Shown here: piece after piece, positions 8,814 through 20,664 of the stretch | How the letters are laid out: each line of letters starts with the position of its first letter | Numbering within the stretch: the stretch's first letter is position 1 | NCBI RefSeq assembly: GCF_900182705.1 | Contig: NZ_FXTP01000005.1 | Location: 62,001 to 126,000 of the forward strand | Direction: 5' to 3' | DNA: 64,000 nt | Origin: Gracilimonas mengyeensis | GTDB lineage: Bacteria > Bacteroidota > Rhodothermia > Balneolales > Balneolaceae | Notes under the pieces: generated by a model | What the model was told of the DNA's origin: nothing | What the model saw: the letters and a program-made list of their open reading frames with translations, nothing else | The model's database searches: none | Made by a program: the position numbers and the translations under genes

Positions 8814-12056
<3,243 letters not shown>

Positions 12057-12082
12057 TCAAGAAAAAATTTGAAATAATTCTT

Positions 12083-12090
12083 TAGCTTTG
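12083..12090 (+). promoter_or_regulatory. Possible -7 promoter element of the arginine leader transcript
   Basis: TAGCTTTG fits the TAnnTTTG -7 consensus described for Bacteroidota-type sigma factors. It lies 15 bases before the leader ATG at 12105, which would give a very short 5' UTR. No well-spaced -33 TTTG is present: the TTTG at 12068-12071 is too close. The call therefore rests on one element and its position. Confidence 0.4.
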
Positions 12091-12104
12091 TTTACATTAG
12101 AGCC

Positions 12105-12176
12105 ATGCAAACGAACAGCATAAATAGAATTAATTTTACGCCAACACCACTCCGGCGGATTCCGCGGCGGCGGTAA
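12105..12176 (+). CDS. Arginine-rich leader peptide of the arginine biosynthesis cluster
   Basis: A 23-codon ORF starts with ATG at 12105 and ends with TAA at 12174-12176. Its last seven codons encode R-R-I-P-R-R-R, five of them CGG, and an AGA lies further upstream, so six of 23 residues are arginine. It sits about 110 bases in front of the first gene of a long arginine operon and overlaps a region able to form alternative hairpins. This is the classic design of an attenuation leader: when charged tRNA-Arg is scarce, ribosomes stall on the CGG codons and change downstream folding. No leader of this sequence is known to me; the function is inferred from codon content and position. Confidence 0.75.
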   Translation: MQTNSINRINFTPTPLRRIPRRR

Positions 12177-12259
12177 GCATATAACTATGTCGCTATCTCA
12201 GCGGCACCCACCTCGACAAAACCGCTCAATTCTATTATAACTTTTCCCCGACAGGGAAA
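12170..12259 (+). promoter_or_regulatory. Candidate arginine attenuator (mutually exclusive hairpins after the leader ORF)
   Basis: Four short segments can pair in competing ways. The Arg-codon end GCGGT (12170-12174) pairs with ACCGC (12221-12225). GTCGCT (12189-12194) pairs with AGCGGC (12200-12205) around a 5-base loop. AGCGG (12200-12204) pairs with CCGCT (12222-12226). The second and third stems share an arm, so a ribosome parked on the Arg codons would decide between them. A T-rich tract (12227-12245) follows the third stem. A further small hairpin TTTCCC/GGGAAA (12243-12259) lies 26 bases before the GNAT start codon and could act on translation. Whether control is transcriptional or translational is not clear from the sequence. 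Confidence 0.55.
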
Positions 12260-12285
12260 TTCCATAAAGATCTCACTCAACCATC

Positions 12286-12936
12286 ATGTCTGTTCAAATC
12301 CAAGTTGCTTCCGAAAAGCATAGCACTTATGCCGAAGAAATCACGCTAATGATTGAAACGGCTGCACGCCAGCGCGGCACCGGTATTGCAAAACGTGATC
12401 CGGAATACGTCAAAAAGAAGCTGCGTAACGGTAACGCCATCATCGCTTTAGACGGCAACAAGCTGGCCGGCTTCTGCTACATCGAGGTGTGGGAAAACAA
12501 AAAATATGTAGCCAACTCGGGATTGATTGTACACCCCCACTACCGCGGCATGGGGCTGGCCAAAAACATCAAAGCCAAGGCGTTTGAGCTCTCCCGTAAA
12601 AAATATCCCGGCTCCAAATTATTCGGGATTACCACCAGCCTTCCCGTCATGAAAATCAACTCGGACCTTGGCTACAAGCCCGTCACCTTTTCTGAGCTTA
12701 CCCGTGACGAGACCTTCTGGGATGGTTGCCAAAGCTGCCCCAATTATGACATCCTTACCCGTAATGAGCGCAAGAATTGTTTGTGTACCGGCATGATGTA
12801 CGATCCCAATCAACCCAATAAAAAACCCAAGGCTGAGCGTGAGAAAAACATTGCCAAATATTACCGGTGGGTGAAAATGAAAACCAACAAGTACCTGAAG
12901 AAACTGAATCCCATGAGCATGTTTTTTTCCATTTAA
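12286..12936 (+). CDS. GNAT-family acyltransferase opening the arginine cluster (probable glutamate N-acyltransferase step)
   Basis: The 216-residue protein has the GNAT acyl-CoA-binding motif 'HPHYRGMGLAKNI' at about residues 83-95, preceded by the beta strand 'KYVANSGLIV'. The C-terminal third is unusual for GNATs: it holds four cysteines (C148, C151, C165, C167 in 'GCQSCPNY...NCLCTG') that could bind a metal, and a basic tail. No argA or argJ of the usual kinds is in the cluster, so this gene is the natural candidate for N-acylation of glutamate. Acetyl versus succinyl donor cannot be told from this sequence. Its position directly behind the arginine leader supports the role. Confidence 0.75.
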   Translation: MSVQIQVASEKHSTYAEEITLMIETAARQRGTGIAKRDPEYVKKKLRNGNAIIALDGNKLAGFCYIEVWENKKYVANSGLIVHPHYRGMGLAKNIKAKAFELSRKKYPGSKLFGITTSLPVMKINSDLGYKPVTFSELTRDETFWDGCQSCPNYDILTRNERKNCLCTGMMYDPNQPNKKPKAEREKNIAKYYRWVKMKTNKYLKKLNPMSMFFSI

Positions 12937-12958
12937 ACACTATGAATTTTAATAGACC

Positions 12959-13063
12959 GTCATTGCAAGGAGCCAAAAAGCGAAATCCTAAATATTTCAT
13001 GGAGATCGCTACGTCGAATACCAGCACAGGCTTAGTCTCAACATCCATACTCCTTGCGATGAC
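12959..13063 (+). repeat. Imperfect palindromic intergenic repeat between the GNAT gene and argG
   Basis: The outer arms GTCATTGCAAGGAG (12959-12972) and CTCCTTGCGATGAC (13050-13063) are inverted repeats matching at 13 of 14 positions. The middle holds 'GGAGATCGCTACGTCG', a phrase familiar from dispersed palindromic repeats in many bacterial genomes. The unit fills most of the 154-bp gap before argG. It may be a REP/MITE-like element, and its RNA could form a long hairpin inside the operon transcript. There is no coding potential. Confidence 0.65.
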
Positions 13064-13090
13064 ACAAACTCATTCAAATTCCATTCAATC

Positions 13091-14293
13091 ATGACTGAAA
13101 AGAAAAAAGTTTTACTCGCCTTTAGCGGCGGACTCGATACCAGCTACTGCGCCATATGGCTGGCTAAAGAAAAAGGCTATGACGTGCACACCGCAGCCGT
13201 AAATACCGGTGGTTTTGATGCCGAAGAAACCGAAGCACTGGCTGAAAAAGCCCAAAAGCTCGGCATTCAAAATCACGTAATGTTGAATGTGGAAGAGGAA
13301 TTCTATCAAAAGGGCATTAAATATCTGGTATTTGGGAATGTGTTGAAAAACCACACCTACCCACTATCGGTAAGTGCCGAGCGGGTATTCCAAGCCGTAG
13401 CTATTGCTGAATATGCTAAAGAAATTGGCGCCGATGCCATCGCTCACGGAAGCACCGGGGCCGGGAACGACCAGGTTCGTTTTGATTTAGTGTTTAATGT
13501 GATGGCGCCCGGTGTGGAGATCATCACCCCTATTCGTGATCAAAAACTGAGCCGTGAAGAAGAAGTGGAATACCTGAAGGAAAACGGCATCGATCAGGAA
13601 TGGGCCAAAGCCAAATATTCCATCAATCAGGGATTGTGGGGCACCTCCGTCGGCGGCGCCGAAACGCTGACTTCGCACCAGGGACTTCCCGAAGATGCCT
13701 GGCCTACTAAAGTAACCGCCACCGATTCGAAAAAAGTGGAATTGGAATTTAAACAAGGCGAGTTGATTGGCATTGACGGCCAGCAATTCAGCCCGGTTCA
13801 GGCCATTAAAGAACTGGAGAAGATTGCCTCTCCATATGGCGTTGGAAGAGACATTCACGTAGGCGATACCATTATTGGAATTAAAGGTCGTGTGGGATTT
13901 GAGGCAGCTGCGCCAATGATCATCATTAAATCACACCAGCTGCTGGAGAAACACACGCTGGGCAAATGGCAACTGCACTGGAAAGATCAACTCGCCGACT
14001 GGTACGGCATGTTGATGCACGAGGGTCAGTATCTCGACCCCGTGATGCGCAACATTGAAACCTTCCTGGAAGACACGCAAGAGACGGTATCCGGCAAGGT
14101 ATTTGTGAAACTGGAGCACAAACGATTTGAGCTGGAAGGCATCGAATCAGACCATGATTTAATGGCTTCCAAATTTGGCCAGTACGGCGAGATGAACAAC
14201 GCCTGGAGCGGCGAAGATGTGAAAGGCTTCACCAAAATTCTGGCCAATTCTATGCTCATCCAAAAACAAACCCAAAACCAGACCAATGATTAA
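13091..14293 (+). CDS. argG: Argininosuccinate synthase
   Basis: ArgG joins citrulline and aspartate with ATP to give argininosuccinate, the penultimate step of arginine synthesis. The ATP pyrophosphatase loop 'AFSGGLDTSYC' lies at about residues 9-19. Further family stretches are 'AHGSTGAGNDQVRFD' and 'SINQGLWGTSVGG'. At 400 residues it is full length. The argC start lies 8 bases inside its 3' end, indicating translational coupling. The next enzyme, argininosuccinate lyase (argH), is not found in this window. Confidence 0.95.
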   Translation: MTEKKKVLLAFSGGLDTSYCAIWLAKEKGYDVHTAAVNTGGFDAEETEALAEKAQKLGIQNHVMLNVEEEFYQKGIKYLVFGNVLKNHTYPLSVSAERVFQAVAIAEYAKEIGADAIAHGSTGAGNDQVRFDLVFNVMAPGVEIITPIRDQKLSREEEVEYLKENGIDQEWAKAKYSINQGLWGTSVGGAETLTSHQGLPEDAWPTKVTATDSKKVELEFKQGELIGIDGQQFSPVQAIKELEKIASPYGVGRDIHVGDTIIGIKGRVGFEAAAPMIIIKSHQLLEKHTLGKWQLHWKDQLADWYGMLMHEGQYLDPVMRNIETFLEDTQETVSGKVFVKLEHKRFELEGIESDHDLMASKFGQYGEMNNAWSGEDVKGFTKILANSMLIQKQTQNQTND

Positions 14294-15251
14294 AGTCGGA
14301 GTCATAGGAGGCGCGGGATATACCGCCGGAGAACTGCTCAGAATTTTATTGCATCACCCCAAAGCGGAATTGAAAAGCGTGGTGAGCCGCAGTCACAGCG
14401 GGGAGTTTTTGTACAAAGCCCATCCCGACCTGAACGGAGATATCGATCTGAAATTTGATGCAGAACTGAACCAAGATGTAGACGTGGTATTTCTGTGCAT
14501 GGGGCACGGGAATTCCAGAGGTATTGTAGAAAGCGGGGTGATTCCCGAATCGGCCAAAATTGTAGATTTGAGCACGGACTTCCGCCATAAAGAAAGTAGT
14601 AACGGATTTGTATATGGCCTGCCGGAACTGAACCGCGAGGATATCAAAGAAGCAGACAAAATTGCCAACCCCGGCTGCTTTGCCACCTGTATTCAGCTTA
14701 CGCTGTTGCCCTTGGCGGATGCGGGATTGATTAACCAAGACGTGCACGTAACTGCCATCACTGGAAGCACCGGGGCGGGACAAAATCCCACGGCTACCAC
14801 GCACTTTAGCTGGCGCAGCCACAATGCCTCCATCTACAAACCACTGACTCACCGCCACCTGAAAGAAATCAAAGAAAGCCTGACGCAGCTGCAGGATGAT
14901 TTCAGCAACCAAGTGCACTTTATTCCTATGCGCGGAGCGTTTACCCGTGGAATTTTGGCGGTTTCCTATCTTCCCACAGATAAATCACTTGAAGAAGTAC
15001 AGGATTTATTTGAAGCGTATTACGCAGATCATCCCTTCGTGCATCTCTCGGATGAACCGCTGGATGTGAAGCAAATTGTAGGCACCAACAAAGGCTTGCT
15101 GCATCTGCAAAAAGAAAATGGCCAAATCCTCATTACCGGTGTGATTGACAACCTGGTGAAAGGGGCCTCGGGACAGGCCGTGCAAAACATGAATCTCATC
15201 TTTGGACTCGACGAAACGGAAGGACTCACTCTTAAATCAACCGCATTTTAA
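14286..15251 (+). CDS. argC: N-acetyl-gamma-glutamyl-phosphate reductase (or N-succinyl equivalent)
   Basis: ArgC reduces the N-acyl-glutamyl-phosphate made by ArgB to the semialdehyde with NADPH. The protein has an N-terminal Rossmann motif ('VGVIGGAGYTAGELLRIL'), the catalytic cysteine in 'ANPGCFATCIQL' (about residue 134), and the family stretch 'TGSTGAGQNPTATTHFSWR'. At 321 residues it is normal. It overlaps argG by 8 bases and is followed two bases later by proC. The acyl group used may be succinyl rather than acetyl, given the features of the argF' gene in this cluster. Confidence 0.93.
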   Translation: MIKVGVIGGAGYTAGELLRILLHHPKAELKSVVSRSHSGEFLYKAHPDLNGDIDLKFDAELNQDVDVVFLCMGHGNSRGIVESGVIPESAKIVDLSTDFRHKESSNGFVYGLPELNREDIKEADKIANPGCFATCIQLTLLPLADAGLINQDVHVTAITGSTGAGQNPTATTHFSWRSHNASIYKPLTHRHLKEIKESLTQLQDDFSNQVHFIPMRGAFTRGILAVSYLPTDKSLEEVQDLFEAYYADHPFVHLSDEPLDVKQIVGTNKGLLHLQKENGQILITGVIDNLVKGASGQAVQNMNLIFGLDETEGLTLKSTAF

Positions 15252-15253
15252 TC

Positions 15254-16063
15254 ATGGCTAAAAAACACGACATCGCAATTATTGGAGCCGGAAACCTGGG
15301 TATCGCCATCGCAAAAGGCATTGCCGGGGCCAAGTTGGCCAAACCCAAAAACATGTATCTGACCCGCCGGCACCTGGAGAAACTGGCCGACTTAAAGAAG
15401 CAGAAGTTCAACGTGCTGGCTAATAATATTGAAGCCGTACAAAACGCGGAATATGTGTTCTTATGTGTTCAACCCAAGCAGCTGCCTGATGTGCTGAAAG
15501 AAATCAATCCGGTGTTGGATCCTGAAAAACATGTACTGATTTCCACGATTACCGGGGTTGAAATCCCTACCATTGAGCAGCACCTGGAAACGACGATGCC
15601 CATCATCCGGGCCATGCCCAATACGGCTACGGCAATCCAGGAATCGATGACCTGCATGTGTACTAAGAACGCCAGCGAGGATCAGGTAAAAGAAGTGAAG
15701 ACCTTTTTTGAGGCCCTGGGCGAAACGCTGGTGATTGATGAGAACCTGATGAAGGCCGCCACCGTGCTTGCGGCCAGTGGTATTGCCTTTTTCCTGCGGT
15801 ATATTCGTGCGGCTACCCAAGGTGGAATTCAGCTGGGATTCCATGCGGAAGAGGCCCAGAAGATTGCCATGCAGACGGCCCGCGGCGCTGCCTCATTGTT
15901 GGTGGAGGGCGAAAATCACCCCGAAACGGAAATTGATAAAGTAACCACGCCCCAGGGCTGCACCATCGCCGGACTGAACGAGATGGAACACCAGGGCCTC
16001 AGCTCGGCCGTCATCAAAGGATTGATGGCTTCCTATGAAAAAATTAACAACATCACCCAATGA
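15254..16063 (+). CDS. proC: Pyrroline-5-carboxylate reductase
   Basis: ProC reduces 1-pyrroline-5-carboxylate to proline with NAD(P)H. The N-terminal dinucleotide fold 'IAIIGAGNLGIAIAKGIAG' (about residues 7-25), 'RAMPNTATAIQESMT' and the C-terminal 'TPQGCTIAGLNEMEHQGLSSAVIKGL' are the diagnostic ProC blocks. The length of 269 residues fits. It is embedded between argC and argD, overlapping argD by 4 bases, so proline and arginine synthesis from glutamate are co-expressed here. This linkage makes sense because both routes pass through glutamate semialdehyde chemistry. Confidence 0.93.
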   Translation: MAKKHDIAIIGAGNLGIAIAKGIAGAKLAKPKNMYLTRRHLEKLADLKKQKFNVLANNIEAVQNAEYVFLCVQPKQLPDVLKEINPVLDPEKHVLISTITGVEIPTIEQHLETTMPIIRAMPNTATAIQESMTCMCTKNASEDQVKEVKTFFEALGETLVIDENLMKAATVLAASGIAFFLRYIRAATQGGIQLGFHAEEAQKIAMQTARGAASLLVEGENHPETEIDKVTTPQGCTIAGLNEMEHQGLSSAVIKGLMASYEKINNITQ

Positions 16064-17190
16064 ATTTATTTGAAGTTTACCCCCTCTTAGACGTTGAGCC
16101 GGTTAAAGGCAAAGGCCACTATGTGTATGATAAAGAAGGTACCAAGTACCTGGATTTTTATGGCGGTCATGCCGTAATTTCCATCGGGCACGCCCATCCG
16201 CATTATGTGGAACGCGTGAATGCACAGCTCAACGACATCGGTTTTTATTCGAATTCGGTACCCATCAGCATACAGAAGGAACTGGCCAATAAACTGGGCA
16301 AGCTGTCGGGTTACGACGACTGGAGCCTGTTCCTGTGCAACTCCGGTGCCGAAGCCAACGAAAACGCACTTAAGGTAGCCTCAGCCCACAATCAGCGGAA
16401 GAAAATCCTTGCTTTCAAAGGAGCATTCCATGGACGTACTTCGCTGGCTGTGGCTGTTACCGACAAGCCCAGCATCGTATTTCCGGTAAATGAAGGGGCG
16501 GAGGTATTGCGCTATGAAATGGAAGATTTTGACGGTGTGGAAAAAGCGTTGAAGCAGGAAGATGTAAGCGCCGTCATTATTGAAGGCATTCAAGGCATCA
16601 GCGGCATTCATGCTCCTTCTGAAAAATTTCTAAAGCATCTGCGAAAGCTCTGTAATAAAACGGATACCGTACTGATTTTGGATGAGATTCAATCCGGCTT
16701 TGGCCGCGCCGGTACCTTTTTTGCCCATCAGTTGTTTGGGGTTGAACCGGATGTGATTACCATGGCCAAGGGCATGGGCAACGGATTTCCCGTGGCGGGC
16801 GTGTTGATTCATCCCAAATTTGAAGCCTCATTCGGGATGCTTGGAACTACCTTTGGTGGCAACCACCTGGCCTGCGCTGCCGCCTTAGCCGTACTGGAAG
16901 TGATAGAACAGGAAAACCTGCTGCAAAACTCTAAAAATGTAGGAACCTATCTGGGCGAGCAATTGAAGGAAGTACCTAAGGTGAAGGAAATCCGTCAGTT
17001 TGGGTTGATGATTGGCCTGGAGTTTGACCAGCCCGTAGCCGACTGGCGTAAGAAGTTGCTGTATGAGCACCATATTTTTACCGGCTCCTCGTCCAATCCG
17101 AATGTACTGCGGCTGCTGCCTCCACTTTCTGTTACTAAGGAAGAGTGCGATATGCTGGTGGGGGCGTTGAAGAAAGTGGTTAGTGATTGA
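16060..17190 (+). CDS. argD: N-acylornithine aminotransferase
   Basis: This PLP enzyme converts N-acylglutamate semialdehyde to N-acylornithine using glutamate. The class-III aminotransferase signature 'LILDEIQSGFGRAGTFFAHQ' ends 16 residues before the PLP lysine, K237 in 'ITMAKGMGNGFP'. 'NSGAEANENALKVA' binds the phosphate of PLP. At 376 residues it is slightly shorter than the usual ~400 but all blocks are present. It overlaps proC by 4 bases and ends the first tightly packed part of the cluster; the next gene is 374 bp away, past a large palindromic repeat. Confidence 0.93.
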   Translation: MNLFEVYPLLDVEPVKGKGHYVYDKEGTKYLDFYGGHAVISIGHAHPHYVERVNAQLNDIGFYSNSVPISIQKELANKLGKLSGYDDWSLFLCNSGAEANENALKVASAHNQRKKILAFKGAFHGRTSLAVAVTDKPSIVFPVNEGAEVLRYEMEDFDGVEKALKQEDVSAVIIEGIQGISGIHAPSEKFLKHLRKLCNKTDTVLILDEIQSGFGRAGTFFAHQLFGVEPDVITMAKGMGNGFPVAGVLIHPKFEASFGMLGTTFGGNHLACAAALAVLEVIEQENLLQNSKNVGTYLGEQLKEVPKVKEIRQFGLMIGLEFDQPVADWRKKLLYEHHIFTGSSSNPNVLRLLPPLSVTKEECDMLVGALKKVVSD

Positions 17191-17564: not shown

Positions 17565-18518
17565 ATGAACTCATTCCTGTCTATAAACGATGTTGAAAAC
17601 CTGCCGGCGCTGGTGCAAGAGGCGCTGGAGATCAAGAAGAACCCGCATGTATATTCGGATTTGGGACGGCAGCGATCGATGTGCCTGATCTTTCTGAATC
17701 CCAGTTTGCGGACACGATTGAGTTCACAGAAAGCCGCCTTTAACCTGGGTTTGGATACGGCCGTGCTGGATGTCGGCAGTCAGGGGTGGAACCTCGAATT
17801 TGCCGATGGTGTGGTGATGGATGGCGATAAAGCCGAACACATAAAAGAAGCAGCTGCCGTCATCAGTTCCTATTTTGATGTGGTTGCCATTCGCGCTTTT
17901 GCCAAGCTGCAGGATCGCGAGGAAGATTACAGCGAACAGGTGATGTCGGCCTTCAAGGAATACTGCCCCGTACCGGTTATTAACATGGAATCATCGACCG
18001 GGCACCCGCTGCAGGCTTTTGCCGACCTCATCACCATAGAAGAACATAAAAAAGTGGAAAAGCCCAAAGTGGTGTTGACCTGGGCGCCGCATCCCAAAGC
18101 ACTGCCGCAGGCGGTTGCAAACTCCTTTTCGCAATGGATGCAGGCGGCGAATTTTGACTTCACCATCACCCATCCTGAAGGCTATGAGCTGGCCGATGAA
18201 ATGGTGGGCAATGCCAAGGTAGAATACGATCAAGCTAAAGCTTTTGAAGGCGCTGATTTCATCTACGCCAAAAACTGGTCCAATTATAAAGACTATGGAA
18301 AAGTAGTAAGCAAAGACTCAAACTGGATGGTCACCCAGCAAAAAATGCAGCTTACCAACGCAGGAAAGTTTATGCACTGCCTTCCGGTCCGCCGCAATGT
18401 GGTGGTAGAAGGCGCCGTGCTGGATAGCGACCAAAGCATCGTGATTCCCCAAGCGACGAACCGAATTTTTTCAATGCAAACCGTAACCAAAAAAATTCTC
18501 GAAAGTACTCATTCATGA
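17565..18518 (+). CDS. argF': N-acylornithine carbamoyltransferase (N-succinyl specificity favoured)
   Basis: The enzyme carbamoylates the delta-amino group of N-acylornithine instead of free ornithine. It has the family's altered carbamoyl-phosphate motif 'NPSLRTRLSSQKAA' (about residues 45-58), the block 'DGVVMDGDKAEH' (81-92), 'TGHPLQAFADLITIEE', 'YAKNW' and 'HCLPVRRN'. This pattern fits the Bacteroides/Xanthomonas enzymes rather than ordinary ArgF. Residue 90 is Ala. As I recall from work on this family, Glu at the equivalent site gives N-acetylornithine specificity, and Pro, Ala, Ser or Val gives N-succinylornithine specificity. Ala90 thus favours the succinyl form. The argB start overlaps its stop by 4 bases. 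Confidence 0.9.
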   Translation: MNSFLSINDVENLPALVQEALEIKKNPHVYSDLGRQRSMCLIFLNPSLRTRLSSQKAAFNLGLDTAVLDVGSQGWNLEFADGVVMDGDKAEHIKEAAAVISSYFDVVAIRAFAKLQDREEDYSEQVMSAFKEYCPVPVINMESSTGHPLQAFADLITIEEHKKVEKPKVVLTWAPHPKALPQAVANSFSQWMQAANFDFTITHPEGYELADEMVGNAKVEYDQAKAFEGADFIYAKNWSNYKDYGKVVSKDSNWMVTQQKMQLTNAGKFMHCLPVRRNVVVEGAVLDSDQSIVIPQATNRIFSMQTVTKKILESTHS

Positions 18519-19279
18519 AATCCATAAAAGTCATTAAAGTTGGCGGAAAAGTTATTAACAACGAAGACCGGCTGGATGCTTTCCTAAAAGCACTCAGACA
18601 ACTGGAAGGCCCCAAAGTATTGGTGCATGGCGGGGGCTCGGTAGCTTCTACCATGGGCGAACGTCTGGGCATCAAACCCAATATGAAAGACGGACGCCGT
18701 ATCACCGATGACGACACGCAGGAAGTCATCACCATGGTGTATGGCGGACTGGTGAACAAAAATATTGTAGCCAAACTACAGGCCTTGGGTTCTGATGCCG
18801 TCGGGCTTTCAGGTGCTGATGTGAACCTCATCTCTGCTAAAAAGCGAAACCCCGAACCCGTGGACTATGGCTGGGTTGGAGATATTGAGCAGGTACGCAC
18901 CGACTGGCTGCTGGAGTTCTTGCGGAATGATGTGATTCCCGTACTGGCCCCGCTCACGCACGACGGCAAAGGGAATATCCTGAACACCAATGCTGATTCC
19001 ATTGCATCATTTACGGCTTCTGCTTTGGCTGAGTTTTCTTCTGTAGAACTGATGCTCTGCTTTGAACAAGCCGGCGTTATGAAAGATGAAATTATGCTGC
19101 CCGGATTAAATCCCGATTTATATGAGGAGTTAAAGTCCGAGAAAGTCATCACCGACGGCATGATTCCTAAAATAGACTTGGGCTTTGCCGCTTTGAAGCA
19201 AGGAGTTAAGCATGTAACCATCCGCAGCTTTGATGCATTGCAGGAAGAGAAAGCCGGGACAGAGCTGCGGTTAACGTAG
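18515..19279 (+). CDS. argB: N-acetylglutamate kinase family (N-acylglutamate kinase)
   Basis: ArgB phosphorylates the gamma-carboxyl of N-acylglutamate with ATP, and is usually the step controlled by arginine feedback. 'VIKVGGKVI' at the N-terminus, 'KVLVHGGGSVASTMGERLGI' (about residues 30-49), 'GLSGADVNLISAK' and 'NTNADSIASFTASALA' are the amino-acid-kinase blocks. The 254-residue length is the short form, without the N-terminal helix found in arginine-sensitive hexameric enzymes, so direct feedback by arginine is less likely. That fits with control through the leader. It overlaps argF' by 4 bases. Confidence 0.93.
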   Translation: MKSIKVIKVGGKVINNEDRLDAFLKALRQLEGPKVLVHGGGSVASTMGERLGIKPNMKDGRRITDDDTQEVITMVYGGLVNKNIVAKLQALGSDAVGLSGADVNLISAKKRNPEPVDYGWVGDIEQVRTDWLLEFLRNDVIPVLAPLTHDGKGNILNTNADSIASFTASALAEFSSVELMLCFEQAGVMKDEIMLPGLNPDLYEELKSEKVITDGMIPKIDLGFAALKQGVKHVTIRSFDALQEEKAGTELRLT

Positions 19280-19596: not shown

Positions 19597-20664
19597 ATGA
19601 ACACCATCGAAGAACTTACTGAACAAGCCATTGAGCTGTTGAAAAAGCTCATTTCCATCCAGTCGTACAGCGGCGAAGAGGATAAAACCGCCGACCTGTT
19701 GTCGAACGTACTGGAGGAATTTGGCTTCAACCCAGAGCAGAAGGGAAACAATGTTTGGGCCTATGGCGGAGACATCAACCCCGACAAACCAACACTGCTG
19801 CTAAACTCCCATCACGATACGGTGAAGGCCTCTCAAAAGTGGACTAAAGATCCCTTCACCCCAACCCTGGAAGACGGCAAGCTGTTTGGACTTGGAAGTA
19901 ACGATGCAGGTGGCCCGCTGGTGAGTTTGCTGGCTACATTTGTTTATTTGTCGGAGCGAGAGCAACCATATAACCTGGTGTTTTTGGCTTCCGCTGAAGA
20001 GGAAACCTCTGGCAAAAAAGGTGTGCCTATTGTACTGCCTGAAATGGTGGATATTGACCTGGCCGTAGTAGGCGAACCAACCTCCATGGATCTGGCTGCT
20101 GCAGAACGCGGACTGGTTGTGCTGGATTGTATCAGCCATGGTAAAAGCGGCCATGCTGCCCGTGGGGAGGGCGAGAACGCTATCTACAAAGCCATGAAGG
20201 ATATTGAGTGGTTCCGGAATTTTGAGTTTGAGAAAGTGTCGGAGGTACTGGGCGCCATCAACATGACGGTGACCATCATCGAAGCCGGGACGCTGCACAA
20301 CGTAGTTCCAGATGAATGCCGTTTTGTAGTGGATGTGCGACCTAACGAGTTTTATAGCAATGAAGAGGTGGTAGAAAGCATCCGCCAATATGTGGATTGC
20401 GAGGTGAAGCCCCGTTCGTTGAATTTAAATGCCTCCGGTATTTCGCTGGATCACCCCGTGGTTAAAAAAGCGGAGTCATTAGGTATCCGCACTTACGGAT
20501 CTAAGACAATGTCGGACCAAGTGCACATGCCTTTTGACAGCATCAAGATGGGCCCTGGCAATACGCATCGCTCACATACTGAAGACGAGTTTATTTATTT
20601 GGATGAAATTCGTGAGGGAATAAAGACGTATGTGAAACTTTTGGATGGGCTGGAGATTGAGTGA
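19597..20664 (+). CDS. argE: M20-family deacylase, ArgE-type (N-acylornithine or N-acylcitrulline deacylase)
   Basis: M20 metallo-amidohydrolases remove the acyl group late in the pathway. The metal motif 'LLLNSHHDTVKAS' (about residues 67-79), 'GLGSNDAGG' (bridging Asp, about 107-115), 'SAEEETSGKKGV' (catalytic Glu pair) and the late histidine in 'PGNTHRSHTEDEF' are all present. At 355 residues the protein has the usual catalytic plus dimerisation domains. Because carbamoylation here precedes deacylation, the expected substrate is N-acylcitrulline rather than N-acylornithine. It is a relative of ArgE, LysK and DapE, so the symbol rests mainly on context. Confidence 0.85.
   Translation: MNTIEELTEQAIELLKKLISIQSYSGEEDKTADLLSNVLEEFGFNPEQKGNNVWAYGGDINPDKPTLLLNSHHDTVKASQKWTKDPFTPTLEDGKLFGLGSNDAGGPLVSLLATFVYLSEREQPYNLVFLASAEEETSGKKGVPIVLPEMVDIDLAVVGEPTSMDLAAAERGLVVLDCISHGKSGHAARGEGENAIYKAMKDIEWFRNFEFEKVSEVLGAINMTVTIIEAGTLHNVVPDECRFVVDVRPNEFYSNEEVVESIRQYVDCEVKPRSLNLNASGISLDHPVVKKAESLGIRTYGSKTMSDQVHMPFDSIKMGPGNTHRSHTEDEFIYLDEIREGIKTYVKLLDGLEIE

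Follow-up and report, generated by a model that had tools for sequence, protein, structure and literature searches.

The window analyzed here, a 64,000-nt stretch of DNA from the 4.67 Mb genome of Gracilimonas mengyeensis (G000), carries a cluster of arginine biosynthesis genes on the + strand. Its first gene codes for a GNAT acyltransferase (12286-12936) and is followed by argG (13091-14293), argC (14286-15251), proC (15254-16063), argD (16060-17190), argF' for an N-acyl-ornithine transcarbamylase (17565-18518), a short form of argB (18515-19279) and a gene for an argE/dapE-type deacylase (19597-20664), an order that a preliminary description of the locus had listed correctly. The closest structure to the argF' product is a transcarbamylase, PDB 1js1 (E 1e-116), which we take to be the Bacteroides succinylornithine enzyme. 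Residue 6 of ArgB aligns with residue 25 of 2bty, presumably the arginine-sensitive T. maritima enzyme, and residue 5 with residue 5 of 1gs5, presumably the E. coli enzyme. By this alignment the protein is indeed a short form, as had been described, without the N-terminal extension of 2bty; in ArgB of the 2bty type, this extension confers arginine feedback.

A leader ORF rich in arginine codons

Upstream of GNAT lies an ORF of 23 codons (12105-12176, + strand) encoding MQTNSINRINFTPTPLRRIPRRR, with 109 nt between its stop codon and the GNAT start. Codons 17-23 (12153-12173) read CGG CGG ATT CCG CGG CGG CGG, which confirms from the sequence the earlier reading of a peptide ending in R-R-I-P-R-R-R with CGG for all five arginines of that stretch; the sixth arginine of the ORF, at codon 8, is encoded by AGA. 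A weak candidate for a -7 promoter box of the TAnnTTTG type, TAGCTTTG, may be located 14 nt before the leader ATG (12083-12090, + strand), the consensus being the one given in the accessible part of a paper on Flavobacterium psychrophilum (PMC9723704).

The GNAT gene is present in 43 of 92 Balneolaceae genomes. According to the preliminary description, an arginine leader associated with the arg cluster would be refuted if orthologous leaders held no conserved Arg-rich ORF. Of 42 Balneolaceae loci, 40 have such an ORF ahead of the cluster: all 30 loci L005-L034, the window included, and 10 of the 12 loci L115-L126. It begins 149-247 nt upstream of GNAT, and its presence supports the proposed association. 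No leader was seen before the GNAT-argG genes of G036 and G089, two genomes of 1.5-1.8 Mb in which the GNAT start codons are not surely located, and G081 was left out with a GNAT match that is a fragment.

The leader ORF at 12105-12176 is genuine and under selection. Among 25 leaders, CGG accounts for 98 of 149 Arg codons, compared with a CGG share of 21% in 35 ORFs of the window and 11% in the loci of 20 relatives. The last 30 nt of these leaders contain 121 Arg among 250 codons in the coding frame, versus 24 and 0 in the other two frames. In the leaders of 66 nt (n=15), Arg is found at codons 19 and 20 in every case and in all but one at codon 21; drift is seen at codons 3-5 and 10-14, and CGG, CGA and CGC swap for each other at codons 15, 16 and 19. 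CGG is fixed at codon 20 (15/15) and nearly so at codon 21 (14/15), which RNA pairing could equally account for. An upstream ATG-initiated ORF with at least five Arg in eight codons occurs at 11 of ~21 GNAT genes versus 2 of ~274 other genes, and one with at least four Arg in eight codons at 19 versus 8. The sample behind these counts comprises the window and 20 Balneolaceae loci with 295 ORFs of at least 200 aa, and some of the loci are near-copies, for example four with an identical leader peptide. Two of the eight background ORFs were inspected, both lying upstream of unrelated genes. As in amino-acid attenuators, a short ORF rich in codons for the amino acid of the pathway thus stands before the operon, and on comparative evidence a putative arginine-sensing leader peptide ahead of the arg cluster is well supported.

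The leader also tracks the arg genes, since in the MAG G437 (Balneolales) the GNAT gene (L037) is isolated ahead of an unrelated gene and lacks an upstream leader, and another argG of the same MAG (41% identical to that of the window) is preceded by the Arg leader MKNNILHIAQIANRRIRRRRSVYTPPGGCLIAV (MKNNILHIAQIANRRIRRRR...); its placement in this MAG may be a binning error. Seven genomes of the family have no GNAT and only a distant argG (29-32% identical). An Arg-rich ORF lies upstream of it in one of them (G067) and in none of the other six, which counts against a general rule. Short ORFs with the common C-terminal pattern C-T/I-A/V-C-L/R-x-T-x-x-W-K/R were observed upstream of the distant argG at L292, L293 and L296, and one of these, MRNSFRKRKRRRDLCTACLPTGAWK, is Arg-rich. 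In the GNAT-less genomes G021, G013, G019, G020 and G041, one of which belongs to the window's genus, argG and argC were not found by these searches either, and these organisms are probable arginine auxotrophs.

Helices P1 and P2

Two conserved helices overlap or follow the leader ORF, which is likewise a feature of amino-acid attenuators. The long-range helix P1 joins AATAGAATT within codons 7-9 of the ORF (12123-12131, + strand) to AATTCTATT, 51 nt past the stop codon (12228-12236, + strand). The hairpin P2 (12188-12194 with 12200-12206, + strand) starts 11 nt past the stop. For the P1 search, the swap tests, the P3 and tail analyses, the codon and terminator counts and the P2 distances, the near-copies L012, L014, L015 and L017 as well as L034, which contains N letters, were dropped from the 25-leader sets.

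In the P1 search, the best helix between nt 10-36 and the region after the stop was taken for each leader; a helix in 25 of 25 is therefore found by construction, and the weight for P1 rests on the constancy of its place and on a swap test. In all 25 distinct leaders, P1 has a position of 18-22 in the leader, or 11-12 where the leader is of the longer g19 type, and its partner lies 42-62 nt past the stop, with changing sequences such as TAGAATTGA/TCAATTCTA, TAGGATC/GATCCTA, ATAGTATTGA/TCAATACTGT, TAACATTGTTCG/CGAACAATGTTA and AAAGTATA/TATACTTT. When 5' and 3' segments were exchanged among the species and the mean best-helix scores compared, the leaders' own mean was 18.66, against 13.90 in 2000 permutations (sd 0.57, max 15.72). 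Taken leader by leader, the P1 score was matched by at most two of 50 shuffles in 18 of the 25 and by more than two in the other seven. A swap scan of region pairs gave z 9.3 for P1, a value that is biased because the 3' arm was picked by complementarity, and at most 2.8 for any other pair.

Covariation was scored on an alignment of 20 leaders (A2), from which the five g19 leaders with a longer ORF (L027, L028 and L030-L032) were left out; these are part of the 25 leaders of the P1 search and swap test. L023 is out of register in A2 and was scored there as unpaired. P1 is paired in 87.8% and shows two-sided changes in four of its nine pairs, and P2 is paired in 89.2% with two-sided changes in all seven. 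The covariation score of the whole structure was 0.376, a value reached by none of 500 shuffles (0.199 there). When the partners were offset by 1-3 columns, pairing fell from 84.1% to 28.8-41.9%. Of five measures taken on the whole structure, three exceeded every one of the 500 shuffles; the number of pairs with two-sided changes was reached in 62 of 500 and that of further pair types in 79 of 500. RNAalifold predicts P1 and P2 unprompted, P2 begins 6-13 nt past the stop across leaders, and the predicted fold of 12096-12285 is more stable than those of its dinucleotide-shuffled versions (z -2.27; 5 of 200 were as low).

In 8 of 19 relatives, each a member of the window's genus, a covariance model, R1, found a single copy per genome, located at the arg cluster. 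Seven of these eight leaders were used to build the model, and the remaining one, from G022, is itself a near-copy of a leader used for it. Two members of the genus gave no match: G021, in which argG and argC were not found, and G027, which is 83% complete. Among 27 sources, R1 matched the window and none of 26 loci outside the training set, the five g19 leaders included. P1-like covariation was not seen in the g3 genus (p 0.063), in Flavobacteriaceae (p 0.88) or in Lewinella (p 0.55), where P1-like arms scarcely vary.

The preliminary description had missed P1, the best conserved long-range helix, and had proposed three mutually exclusive pairings. Stems that do not covary would have refuted its idea, and P1 and P2 do covary. 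All three can form in the window: GCGGT 12170-12174 with ACCGC 12221-12225 (P1b, + strand), GTCGCT 12189-12194 with AGCGGC 12200-12205, and AGCGG 12200-12204 with CCGCT 12222-12226. The second corresponds to P2 and covaries; the first and third do not. P1b forms mainly in the window's genus, in 67.5% of the alignment cells and with zero two-sided changes, and the third pairing, considered as a conserved antiterminator, is paired in 52.3%, below the 53.9 average of the shuffles. The search for conserved helices that compete with P1 gave none, and the idea of a set of mutually exclusive hairpins is not supported. Two further candidates were rejected: pairing of the Arg codons with the 5' arm of P2 as a 1:2 helix (79.8% pairable, no covariation, possibly an effect of composition) and a hairpin within the Arg codons (90% paired, no covariation).

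Output of the leader

Leader peptides are habitual in this group: within the family and order, hisG has a His-rich ORF in front of it at 12 of 18 loci (L226-L229, L231-L237 and L242; an example is MKDALLHIHHLSLDVHHAHRGHHHIHVH), and trpE has a WWW ORF, in leaders of the NWWWP type, at 17 of 20 (L244-L246, L248-L251, L253-L259 and L261-L263). The trpE loci devoid of a WWW ORF are L247, L252 and L260, with L252 belonging to the window's own genome, and no clear Leu leader was found in 13 scanned regions upstream of leuA. A P1-like helix signal is moderate in the trp leaders (p 0.0045) and absent in the his leaders (p 0.12).

A single rule for terminators was applied to these leaders. Intrinsic terminators were found in 16 of 16 trp leaders (L249 omitted, as its peptide is that of L244) and in one of 11 his leaders (L237 omitted as close to L236), the other ten lacking them; terminator-like sites were called in 4 of 25 Balneolaceae arg leaders, in one of ten from the g3 genus and in four of the 30 tested from other lineages. 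The arg cases from Balneolaceae are a strong one, L019 (-15.5 kcal/mol), and three weak g19 leaders (-6.1 to -7.5 kcal/mol). The 16 trp cases would speak for a classical trp-type attenuator at the arg cluster as well, with P3 or P2 as an intrinsic terminator that the scans missed. A P3 hairpin (TTTCCC-CGACA-GGGAAA, 12243-12259, + strand) does fold in 18 of 25 arg leaders. However, it is missing from its place in seven and weaker than -3.2 kcal/mol in three more, so that it was rejected as a universal terminator; neither P2 nor P3 of the window has a U-tract behind it, and the rule that identifies every trp leader tested picks out few arg leaders. We therefore regard this explanation as improbable. 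Exclusive terminator and antiterminator helices with an intrinsic terminator, the classical form, were not found at the arg leader: a terminator/antiterminator switch is not supported because a scan of 11900-13100 gave no terminator-like site on the + strand and no conserved competitor of P1 was identified. The arg leader looks like a classical attenuator in its sensor and unlike one in its actuator.

Between P3 and the GNAT start, a pyrimidine-rich, G-poor stretch (12262-12285, + strand) could be a Rho-loading region. In the tails before GNAT, C minus G averages 7.0, compared with 1.1 (sd 4.3) upstream of 268 other ORFs, and 9.7% of these background regions are as extreme; the C-rich, G-poor composition suggests such a role.

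Based on these findings, we propose that the leader is a cis-acting, arginine-specific, ribosome-mediated attenuator with a non-intrinsic output, to which we assign a probability of about 0.74. Transcription would start just upstream of the leader, and the speed of the ribosome across the CGG run would report the charging of Arg-tRNA. When arginine is short, a ribosome would presumably be parked on 12153-12173 and those behind it would queue over codons 7-9. The stalled ribosome would keep the RNA out of its default fold, in which P1 probably closes the leader with P2 inside, and with this fold blocked transcripts would extend into GNAT-argGC-proC-argD-argF'-argB-argE. When arginine is plentiful, the leader would be cleared, P1 and P2 would form and most transcripts would fail to reach GNAT; Rho-dependent termination or RNA decay is a likelier cause of this loss than an intrinsic terminator. 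The genes would accordingly be on when arginine is scarce. A further point stands against an attenuator: P2 starts 11 nt past the stop, outside the usual footprint of a ribosome stalled on the Arg run.

The leader peptide might also act at the level of translation, through ribosome access to the GNAT start or through coupling. In five g3 loci, GCCGUACG directly before the GNAT AUG could form 8-10 bp with the Arg codons, and for rbfL, an Arg-sensing leader of S. aureus, the available excerpt describes an action on translation (PMC13009471). At the window, however, the region before GNAT is nearly unpaired in the predicted fold, and in a swap test no leader segment paired clearly with the GNAT start region (z at most 2.2), which makes a translational output unlikely. 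Direct binding of arginine or of a protein to the RNA, with the ORF being incidental, would agree with the conservation of P1 and P2 and with P2-like loop motifs (UACGU; AGGUGAGUCC) seen by eye in some other lineages. The Arg enrichment lies in the coding frame and comes with some synonymous variation, and no Rfam family was matched; at gathering score no cis-regulator was obtained, the window giving only a tRNA and 20 related loci giving 0 matches, so that an Rfam riboswitch or T-box was rejected and this type of control appears very unlikely. That the ORF serves to make an independently functional small protein or arose by chance, as the few Arg-rich ORFs before other genes might suggest, is scarcely credible in view of its near-constant position, of Arg codons that are kept while the remaining peptide drifts, of the helix arm within it, and of its absence from five loci with clear ArgR matches.

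Leaders and ArgR across the phylum

Arginine control in bacteria is usually told as repression by ArgR, and repressors had been named as the usual explanation in the preliminary description. This explanation fits the family poorly: no ArgR match (PF01316) was found in any of 92 family genomes, that of the window included, and a control search returned matches in 9 of 14 named genomes, Bacteroides among them. Across 392 genomes of the phylum, GNAT was found in 169, ArgR in 126, both in 7 and neither in 104. Under independence, ~54 co-occurrences would be expected, by an arithmetic that is not corrected for kinship, and two of the seven observed are doubtful ArgR matches (G120, E 1.6e-7; G140, E 1.1e-5). 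In five sampled genomes with clear matches to both (G293, G300, G388, G391 and G419), the repressor lies just upstream of GNAT and in the same orientation, 296-347 nt separating the end of its domain match from the GNAT match, and no significant Arg ORF is present (shuffle p 0.58 to 0.98).

Among 77 loci outside Balneolaceae, an Arg-rich ORF at p<=0.03 was found in 20, with ~2 expected, and was absent in 57; many GNAT loci there have neither ArgR nor an Arg leader. A significant leader is absent from all 13 loci that represent other families within the window's class, and ArgR is also missing there, one doubtful match apart; the leader and ArgR therefore do not explain all genomes. We see even odds that, in many Bacteroidota/Balneolota without ArgR, Arg-codon leaders take the place of argR, with the sensor shared and the output step diversified into a terminator in Marinifilum, Arg-codon pairing with the GNAT start in the g3 clade and a terminator-less P1/P2 in the window's group. 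This broader reading is weakened because the 13 same-class loci lack both regulators.

Several observations were made at these more distant loci. In Marinifilum (L063), a classical terminator with a U-tract comes after the Arg leader MKSIIYTESRRHLRSNC... (9651-9761), and a second ORF of 46 aa with FRRRWFR, also present in related loci, lies between leader and GNAT. In the g3 clade (L117, L119 and others), the stretch before the GNAT start reads GCCGTACG. At L117, L119, L120, L122 and L123, GCCGUACG stands directly before the GNAT ATG and is complementary to the Arg codons over 8-10 bp; 0, 0, 5, 6 and 18 of 500 shuffles, respectively, were as good, and this complementarity was not seen in L115, L116, L118, L121 and L124. 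Judged by base pairing, it looks like translational control of GNAT in that clade. Hairpin loops behind the Arg leader resemble, by eye, AGGUGAGUCC in L152, L143, L146, L142, L200 and L066 and UACGU in L074, L080, L180 and L201, and neither type has an Rfam match. In G114, G238 and G269 (L173, L193 and L198), the GNAT match falls within an open frame of 588-630 aa and GNAT is possibly fused to another enzyme. L090, L172 and L151 share a similar short ORF before GNAT, MNxKxxHxTSxSR..SPEVRxL, with only two or three Arg, which could be a different kind of leader.

T-boxes bind the tRNA itself and need no leader ORF. Arginine T-boxes (named in PMC1262725) share with the arg leader, as proposed here, the sensing of arginine tRNA charging at the RNA level; the arg leader gave no Rfam match. 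With the trpL and hisL attenuators, of which trp and his versions are present in the window's family, the arg leader shares a short ORF with a run of cognate codons and subsequent conserved helices before a biosynthetic operon. It differs from them in that the cognate amino acid is arginine, that an intrinsic terminator was not found, and that its long-range helix starts within the ORF, upstream of the regulatory codons.

The nearest described case among the papers compared is orf34-speF of Salmonella (PMC6386406), in which, in the excerpt available, a short ORF senses arginine through successive Arg codons, the hairpin immediately behind its stop codon matters, and Rho and RNase G take part; unlike the arg leader, it controls ornithine decarboxylase, and its sequence and phylum are unrelated. 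The S. aureus uORF rbfL likewise senses arginine supply through Arg codons, as far as its excerpt goes (PMC13009471), but it has two of them, its stalled ribosome blocks the downstream start and it lowers a biofilm regulator under limitation. For F. psychrophilum, from the same broad phylum, clues to leader-peptide attenuation before amino-acid operons are given in the accessible part of PMC9723704, where pheA and hisG, but not arg, are among the conserved 5' elements named; its supplements may list arg. In 2010, Naville and Gautheret knew of leader peptide systems demonstrated only in Proteobacteria and Actinobacteria, with the atypical ermC leader as the exception (excerpt of PMC2965389). 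Among the matches listed by our search of the open-access literature, no description of an Arg leader of an arginine biosynthetic operon was found.

Rules of termination and initiation are little known in the host group, and the trp leaders of the same family, which do bear terminators, provide a contrast by which the output mechanism of the arg leader can be tested directly. A whole family is without an ArgR match, and many of its members have an arginine-reading leader instead. Together with the five genomes in which the repressor stands just upstream of GNAT, this offers a natural case in which one type of regulator may stand in for another.
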